Below, in pieces: positions 3,759 to 4,320 of a stretch of 64,000 bases of DNA; within the stretch, counting starts at the first letter, position 1, and each line of letters starts with the position of its first letter. The position numbers and the translations under genes are program-made. This DNA is from Candidatus Gastranaerophilales bacterium (GTDB taxonomy: Bacteria > Cyanobacteriota > Vampirovibrionia > Gastranaerophilales > Gastranaerophilaceae). The stretch covers positions 1 to 64,000 of the forward strand of contig CALVBW010000030.1 of NCBI GenBank assembly GCA_944325945.1, given 5' to 3'. The notes under the pieces were generated by a model. The model had not been told where the DNA came from. It saw only the letters and a program-made list of their open reading frames with translations, and searched no databases.

Positions 3759-3782
3759 TTTTCATAATATTTCCTGTTTTTG

Positions 3783-3811
3783 TTGACATATTTAAAAAAA
3801 TAATATAAAAT
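3783..3811 (+). promoter_or_regulatory. Promoter of the small-peptide RNA
   Basis: A perfect TTGACA (3783-3788) is followed by overlapping -10 candidates: TATAAA with a 15-bp spacer, or TAAAAT at 3806-3811 with 17 bp. Transcription would start near 3818, about 68 nt before the peptide ATG. Confidence 0.7.
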
Positions 3812-3833
3812 AAACTCTGAGGGTAAACTCCAA

Positions 3834-3879
3834 ACCTCCGCAGCACACTCATTTGTGAAGAAATAGGCTGAAGGGAGGT
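3834..3879 (+). promoter_or_regulatory. Stem that sequesters the ribosome binding site
   Basis: ACCTCC at 3834-3839 is complementary to the Shine-Dalgarno GGAGGT at 3874-3879. The stem continues with CAGC (3841-3844) paired to GCTG (3867-3870). The 5' leader can thus hide a near-perfect ribosome binding site, as in several type I toxin mRNAs. Confidence 0.6.
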
Positions 3880-3885
3880 GATAAT

Positions 3886-3960
3886 ATGACCAAAAACATA
3901 ATAAAAAGTGCTGCCATTGCACTGAGAGCACTTTTTAAAATTATTTTAATTTGGTTATAG
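3886..3960 (+). CDS. 24-residue hydrophobic peptide, candidate type I toxin
   Basis: An ATG at 3886, seven bases after a very strong GGAGGTG, opens a 24-codon frame that ends in TAG at 3958-3960. The peptide starts with MTKNIIKSAAIALRALFK and finishes with a hydrophobic IILIWL tail. It is basic and amphipathic, the typical look of membrane-acting type I toxins such as Fst, Ldr or AapA. It has its own consensus promoter, a leader that masks the ribosome binding site, an opposing promoter downstream, and a terminator for the antisense RNA inside the frame. I recognise no specific family. A leader peptide or a structural RNA with a chance frame are alternatives. Confidence 0.55.
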   Translation: MTKNIIKSAAIALRALFKIILIWL

Positions 3961-4010
3961 GGAGTGAAGAACGGTTTCAGGAATTGCGGTTTCTGGAGCC
4001 GTTTCCCTAT
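3900..4010 (-). ncRNA. Candidate antisense RNA opposite the small peptide
   Basis: A leftward RNA of about 110 nt is predicted from the promoter at 4017-4044. It would be fully complementary to the 3' part of the peptide mRNA and end at the hairpin AAAAAGTGCT/AGCACTTTTT (3936-3927 paired with 3912-3903), which is followed on this strand by a T-rich tail. Its first 60 nt contain a stem pairing TATAGGGA with TCCCTATA (3956-3963 and 4004-4011). Transcription is inferred only. Confidence 0.55.
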
Positions 4011-4016
4011 ATTTAT

Positions 4017-4044
4017 ATTATAACTCATTTTTGGAGTTTGTCAA
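4017..4044 (-). promoter_or_regulatory. Consensus antisense promoter
   Basis: On the minus strand a perfect TTGACA (4044-4039) and a perfect TATAAT (4022-4017) are separated by 16 bp. No annotated leftward gene follows for more than 1.6 kb, so its product should be the antisense RNA. Confidence 0.75.
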
Positions 4045-4077
4045 TTGGCGGTAAAAAACTATCATAATATACTAAGG

Positions 4078-4284
4078 CTATTTTTTAACAAATTCAAGGT
4101 TATAACCTAAAATATCTGCGAGCAATTCTGCCTCCTTAAAGGTTAGCGTTTCACGTCGAATTTTTCCGGCAAGACCGTCAGGAGTATATTTTTTGCCGCA
4201 TTTTTCCGTCATCATTACGGCTAAATCCTTTATATATACATCATTCAATGTTATAAAAGCTTTAAGTTTACTTTTTGTACTCAT
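4078..4284 (-). CDS. Small Cro/C1-like helix-turn-helix protein
   Basis: The 68-residue product begins MSTKSKLKAF and consists of one helix-turn-helix fold. A helix with VYIKDLAVMM is followed by KYTPDGLAGKI as the likely recognition helix, then the TLTFKEAELLADILGY block seen in small XRE-like repressors. The start at 4284 is chosen because ATGACA-17-TATAAT ends 7 nt before it. The upstream in-frame ATG at 4320 would fall inside the -35 box. A 40-bp palindrome lies just upstream, a likely operator, so autoregulation is plausible. It might regulate the adjacent peptide locus or the divergent gene at 4405. Confidence 0.7.
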   Translation of the reverse strand: MSTKSKLKAFITLNDVYIKDLAVMMTEKCGKKYTPDGLAGKIRRETLTFKEAELLADILGYNLEFVKK

Positions 4285-4291
4285 AATTTTT

Positions 4292-4320
4292 ATTATATCT
4301 ATCTTGACATTTTCTGTCAT
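4292..4320 (-). promoter_or_regulatory. Promoter of the small HTH gene, predicted leaderless
   Basis: ATGACA (-35, 4320-4315), a 17-bp spacer and TATAAT (-10, 4297-4292) are followed by the ATG 7 nt later. The transcript should start at or next to the start codon. Confidence 0.65.

Follow-up and report, generated by a model that had tools for sequence, protein, structure and literature searches.

Downstream of dnaB in the window, by which we mean the whole 64,000-nucleotide (nt) stretch analyzed here (contig CALVBW010000030.1, Candidatus Gastranaerophilales, a non-photosynthetic cyanobacterial relative), lies a compact locus that appears to specify two overlapping RNAs, one carrying a short, toxin-like open reading frame (ORF) and the other running antisense to it. 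This dnaB neighbor is one copy of a multicopy two-RNA family, which we consider a candidate type I toxin-antitoxin (TA) system. The first-pass annotation of the same DNA had read the locus in this way. Its features are listed below (SD, Shine-Dalgarno sequence; MFE, minimum free energy; aa, amino acids).

3783-3811, plus strand: putative sense (toxin mRNA) promoter, TTGACA (3783-3788), 17-nt spacer, TAAAAT (3806-3811); 11/12 consensus positions
3820-3831, plus strand: predicted 5' end of the sense RNA; AGGG (3820-3823) with CCCT (4005-4008) and ACTCC (3827-3831) with GGAGT (3961-3965) form a long-distance interaction in the window MFE fold
3834-3879, plus strand: predicted hairpin that hides the ribosome binding site; ACCTCC (3834-3839, anti-SD) and CAGC (3841-3844) opposite GGCTG (3866-3870) and GGGAGGT (3873-3879)
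3882-3958, plus strand: predicted helix between the start-codon region and the ORF end, TATGACCAAA with TTTGGTTATA, in the MFE fold of the window RNA
3886-3960, plus strand: toxin-like ORF of 24 codons, 24 aa, MTKNIIKSAAIALRALFKIILIWL; the TAG stop overlaps TATAGGG
3894-3936, minus strand: predicted intrinsic terminator for the antisense RNA, located within the toxin-like ORF; hairpin 3903-3936, then U-tract TTTTTATTATG to 3894
3905-4010, minus strand: predicted antisense (antitoxin) RNA of ~105 nt, placed from the promoter and terminator positions; it spans the 3' hairpin, the stop codon and about the last 17 ORF codons
3956-4011, plus strand: predicted 3' hairpin, TATAGGGA (3956-3963) with TCCCTATA (4004-4011), inner stem GAACGGTTTCAGGAA / TTTCTGGAGCCGTTT
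4017-4044, minus strand: putative antisense promoter, perfect TTGACA (4044-4039), 16-nt spacer, TATAAT (4022-4017); 12/12 consensus positions

Both promoters, the pairing of ACCTCC and CAGC in the leader with the ribosome binding site, the 24-codon frame for a basic, hydrophobic peptide, the antisense terminator within the peptide gene and the long stem common to both RNAs had been named in that annotation, and all of them are present. Two helices, one between the 5' leader and the region after the ORF and one between the start codon and the ORF end, go beyond its list. The sense RNA, whose 5' end is predicted near AGGGTAA, was folded from 3818 to 4016 and reached an MFE of -65.8 kcal/mol, compared with -42.2 for shuffled sequences (z -6.0, zero shuffles as low). 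That fold showed unprompted the masked ribosome site, the closure of the 5' onto the 3' part through AGGG with CCCU and ACUCC with GGAGU, the helix of the start region with the ORF end, the ORF hairpin and the 3' hairpin. The antisense RNA (4011-3900) gave -30.1 versus -15.0 kcal/mol (z -5.6, again zero shuffles as low), and its 5' hairpin is the complement of the mRNA 3' hairpin.

We determined whether the helix arms vary together by comparing the duplex energy of each arm pair with that obtained after permuting partners among copies (2000 permutations), using 43 copies with a 24- or 25-codon frame, mostly deduplicated at 85% identity. The arms fitted their own partners better in all five helices (0/2000 permutations each), with z-scores, which overstate independence because the permutation ignores relatedness, of -10.0 for the leader with the post-ORF region, -10.1 for the anti-SD with the SD, -11.2 for the start region with the ORF end, -13.6 for the ORF hairpin and -18.8 for the inner 3' hairpin. 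Three control arm pairs in the same test gave 1.4, -1.2 and 0.0, i.e., no covariation. In the long-distance interaction, the two sides change together between types (CUCC/GGAG, GUACC/GGUAC, GUUCC/GGAAC, GACC/GGUC, GCACC/GGUGC), and a distant family of the order, f3, has AAGCCCC/GGGGCUU. Folding of 109 copies gave the SD a probability of being unpaired of 0.08 in the full-length RNA. As a separate observation, the apical loop of the SD-masking hairpin (window 3846-3863 and its homologues; CACACGC..AAGAAAT) is predicted to be unpaired yet ranks with the family's best-conserved stretches.

The promoter-like elements recur across copies. The best antisense-strand promoter of each of 64 deduplicated copies scored a mean of 11.0/12 (7.5 in shuffles), and 62 of them (97%) reached at least 10/12, compared with 2.8% of shuffles. 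The distance from the end of the -10 box to the 3' hairpin is constant in 62/64 copies as well. The sense promoter, found at a preferred distance upstream of the leader, is weaker, with a mean of 9.45/12 over 64 divergent copies versus 7.69 when shuffled. In 58 copies, the ten positions following the ORF-hairpin stem are richer in T when read on the antisense strand (6.7 T, compared with 4.5 in the sense direction), and the ORF hairpin was therefore read as the antisense terminator. Its location accounts for some of the conservation of codons 5-7 (Ile-Ile-Lys, antisense TTTTATTAT). In family f3, TTTAAA-16-TATAAT occupies the antisense promoter site in most copies (loci L137-L154, mostly TTTAAA for TTGACA, with the position always unchanged), which suggests a lineage-specific -35 preference.

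Judging from its length and codon-position pattern, the 24-codon frame is under coding selection. Of 46 copies, 41 have an ATG-to-TAGGG spacing of 72 nt, four of 75 and one of 73, whereas leader length ranges over 66-74 with all phases represented. Mean difference between copies was lowest at the second codon position (0.28 versus 0.47 and 0.51), and several hydrophobic sites are invariant there. As RNA helices constrain synonymous sites, dN/dS (the nonsynonymous-to-synonymous ratio) is weak as coding evidence, and the pN/pS values of 0.68-0.73, weak evidence alone, were replaced by these frame-length and codon-position tests. The 103 class-1 peptides have a mean net charge of +2.4, and their helical hydrophobic moment is 0.339 versus 0.198 after shuffling (z 14.7); they are thereby predicted to be cationic amphipathic helices of the membrane type. 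Peptide lengths across the family are 21-39 aa. Of the 172 distinct copies, 154 were assigned an ORF of 18-48 codons downstream of the ribosome site by an automatic scan. Among the 18 without one, several were simply missed by the scan, and only a handful are truly damaged. The start codon is lost in L061, L092 and L098 and the frame in L055 and L113, with the RNA parts retained in all five.

In the genus, a DNA search detected the locus in 11/16 genomes, with several copies per genome. The window genome has five in total, which lie between ordinary genes, in one case between ORFs that we take to be ispF-like and ffh-like. A covariance model, R1, built from an alignment of 43 copies nearly all encoding class-1 peptides, matched 88/146 genomes of the taxonomic family (30/41 of its genera) and 115/192 genomes of the order, two further families included, with up to 11 copies per genome; the 172 distinct copies, from many genera, share the arrangement. 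The first-pass annotation had proposed such a covariance search in relatives and had said that retention of the structure with loss of the frame would speak against a toxin. The search recovered the locus in over half of the genomes of the order, and in these relatives the two promoters are retained together with the occluded ribosome site, the terminator of the antisense RNA and the frame for the peptide, which lends support to the TA reading as far as sequence comparison can.

Outside the order, no credible R1 match was obtained, the four phylum-level hits among 292 genomes (E values 6e-4 to 0.01) being at chance level, and no family match was found in phage, plasmid and viral collections. 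Pattern hits in Paenibacillus, Chloroflexi and Armatimonadetes were not matched by the covariance model, nor was the single viral pattern hit (L136), which we attribute to chance. Two metagenome-assembled genomes labelled Muribaculaceae (L114, JAMPCZ010000016.1) and Acinetobacter (L133, ONVC01000018.1) match the family model; their DnaB proteins are 75-79% identical to that of the window, which marks them as apparently mislabelled Gastranaerophilales. Neither the locus nor its peptides matched Rfam, Pfam, NCBIfam or PADLOC, in keeping with the first-pass view that the peptide belongs to no recognized family; weak cmscan matches to mir-17 and ctRNA did not reach the gathering scores and were discounted as resemblances between hairpins. 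A literature search, with most subscription journals outside its reach, returned no report joining type I TA systems with Melainabacteria, and the reports it returned joining TA with Gastranaerophilales concern only a Fusobacterium phage and the coral microbiome.

Despite its nearly all-class-1 training copies, R1 also found full-length matches with other peptides, namely, a 32-33 aa class ending in LELLELFLKS, MVDKIIMLLLAF.. peptides and ..ITEKALWLI.. peptides; in family f3, the types are ..KKDLVEILSLL and SKWDWLAII. The leader, the long-distance interaction and the antisense promoter are present in every peptide class, and by inspection, the classes being small, the antisense terminator lies inside the ORF in the other classes too. 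Different classes occur in tandem within one array in L093, L105, L114, L119 and L071. Single-linkage clustering merges some of the classes and does not separate unrelated from far diverged peptides. These features may reflect a modular type I system, in which one conserved control chassis (masked SD, 5'-3' closure, 3' hairpin and downstream antisense promoter) has been fitted with several peptide toxins, each re-evolving the antitoxin terminator within its own codons, and differing cargos stand in tandem arrays; we regard this as an even bet. At another locus (L013, 430-1420), three tandem copies lie within 1 kb, each preceded by TTAATAATATTTCCTTG, which suggests tandem amplification by recombination between these short repeats.

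The window genome and its relatives G014 and G011 carry the locus downstream of dnaB; it is cleanly missing there in G010 and G003, whose DnaB proteins are 98% and 95% identical, respectively, with the flanks rejoined within a few bases. Clean presence/absence and tandem arrays are as expected of accessory TA modules. Relative to L158 and L159, the stretch missing beside dnaB in the two close relatives is ca. 320 bp long (window 3759-4078), and TCATAATAT direct repeats bound it at 3762-3770 and 4062-4070. Adjoining it, on the minus strand of window 4078-4320, is a small ORF of 80 aa with a helix-turn-helix look; a different sequence is found there in G010 and G014.

We consider it likely, at a probability of about 84%, that the locus belongs to a multicopy chromosomal type I TA family of the order Gastranaerophilales. 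What characterizes such systems is found here at the level of sequence and folding: a primary transcript with a masked SD that is predicted to be non-translatable, an antisense gene with its own putative promoter that overlaps the toxin mRNA, and a gene for a small hydrophobic peptide with a coding signature and a predicted amphipathic cationic helix. Some results weigh against this assignment. Copies sit among ordinary housekeeping genes rather than in islands, the sense RNA is without a convincing U-tract terminator downstream of the 3' hairpin, and in the folding of the 109 copies the SD was as inaccessible in 3'-trimmed and 5'-trimmed RNA as in the full-length form (0.08-0.09 throughout). 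The idea that trimming frees the ribosome site was therefore unsupported by folding (0.08 full-length versus 0.09 truncated).

The same RNA architecture might instead control a small membrane peptide that is not toxic, such as a stress peptide or one that regulates a membrane enzyme. Toxic action is our deduction, the peptide pattern is conserved over many species and the copies lie between housekeeping genes, all of which would suit such a peptide. Up to 11 divergent copies per genome, clean presence/absence between relatives at 95-98% and unrelated-looking peptides sharing one RNA chassis do not, and heavy silencing by masked SD, masked start, 5'-3' closure and antisense RNA is typical of toxins, not of ordinary small proteins, so that we hold this alternative to be unlikely. 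That the locus is a structured non-coding RNA pair, a small RNA and its antisense, with an incidental reading frame, is very improbable: although helices cross the ORF and account for part of its codon choice, and the few copies deprived of start codon or frame retain the RNA parts, 45/46 copies have an ATG-to-stop spacing of 72 or 75 despite variation of the other linkers across all phases, hydrophobic sites are invariant at the second codon position, the helical periodicity is strong (z 14.7), and the SD and start are conserved. Slighter still is the chance of a small mobile or repeat element resembling a miniature inverted-repeat transposable element, with its transposase elsewhere and the two-RNA appearance as a by-product. 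The multiple copies, the discrete ca. 320-bp presence/absence beside dnaB with its flanking direct repeats and the tandem arrays would fit such an element, but there are no terminal inverted repeats, the copies have diverged strongly instead of being nearly identical, selection is seen on the promoters, the helices and the coding frame, and phages, plasmids and viral contigs yielded no match that the model upheld.

If the locus is a type I TA module, the full-length mRNA would be made but left untranslated, with its SD hidden, the start region paired to the ORF end and the 5' end closed onto the post-stop region and the 3' end. The stronger, position-fixed downstream promoter would drive the ~105-nt antisense RNA, which may contact the mRNA via the complementary 3' hairpin and form with it an extended duplex that RNase III would probably cleave. 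Degradation seems likelier than direct blocking of the ribosome site because the antisense RNA does not cover that site. Upon loss of the antisense RNA, the mRNA would be activated by a further step, and the peptide would insert in the cell membrane and stop growth. As a guess at the activating step, cleavage within the apical loop that separates anti-SD from SD, itself strongly conserved, could release the SD.

The family appears to be undescribed; it would work much like aapA/IsoA and hok/Sok and apparently belongs to neither. As in aapA/IsoA (PMC6733600), there are short peptides (30 aa in aapA), several chromosomal copies, an SD masked by anti-SD elements, a 5'-3' long-distance interaction in the full-length mRNA and a cis-overlapping antisense RNA (about 80 nt there, ~105 nt predicted here). 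The likeness to AapA/IsoA drawn in the first-pass annotation holds for the mRNA fold, the occluded ribosome site and the copy number and fails for the antisense geometry. The -10 box of IsoA3 lies inside the toxin ORF (PMC6733600), unlike the antisense promoter here (4017-4044), which is downstream of the stop at 3960, and the antisense RNA here covers the 3' half of the ORF and the 3' untranslated region (UTR) and ends inside the ORF, an arrangement opposite to that of IsoA3, which is directed against the 5' part of the toxin gene. In aapA, 3' trimming frees translation (PMC6733600), which folding failed to reproduce for our 109 copies. The separation from aapA/IsoA rests on the antisense geometry and on the absence of Pfam or NCBIfam matches for the peptides. 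With hok/Sok, as cited in PMC6733600, the family shares a translationally inert full-length mRNA with 5'-3' closure; it differs by the local anti-SD hairpin in the leader and by an antisense RNA that enters from the 3' side. As no peptide class matches any Pfam or NCBIfam family, none matches Hok, and likewise no Pfam or NCBIfam match to the Fst or Ldr peptide families was found among them.

Fst/Ldr systems (par of pAD1; PMC7472228) resemble the locus in their short hydrophobic peptide, convergent antisense RNA and hairpin with T-tracts on both sides. The hairpin here is inside the ORF and so cannot be where the toxin mRNA normally ends, unlike the shared bidirectional terminator of Fst/Ldr, and of its T-tracts the one on the antisense side is the better. 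Long convergent overlap of sense and antisense RNAs is also reported for txpA/RatA, yonT/SR6 and convergent Clostridioides difficile modules in the summaries given by PMC12390103 and PMC6563280, where the toxins of the C. difficile cases are longer, at 50-53 aa. By analogy with txpA/RatA, as described in PMC12390103, such overlap would point to duplex-triggered mRNA degradation. The first type I candidate reported from the phylum, in 2025, is msoT1/msoA1 of Microcystis aeruginosa (PMC12390103). Its antisense RNA, as here, base-pairs with the coding sequence at its 3' end and with the 3' UTR, but the toxin has 63 aa with two predicted membrane helices and the antitoxins 56 and 83 nt, compared with peptides of 21-39 aa in our family; the peptide length classes differ, and we found no evidence of a relation.

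Type I systems were stated in 2025 to be known only from Proteobacteria, Firmicutes and Tenericutes, plus the one Microcystis candidate (PMC12390103). Since it occurs in over half of the sampled genomes, with up to 11 copies each, the family described here is probably the main type I system of the whole order Gastranaerophilales, a common uncultured gut lineage, and it was overlooked because its peptides are unannotated. If confirmed, it would mean that toxin mRNAs closed over a long distance exist beyond the lineages in which they were first found, and it would offer a large body of natural sequences showing how RNA folds, an antisense terminator and a protein code can share their bases. With differing peptides on one chassis, the exchange of toxins could be tested directly.
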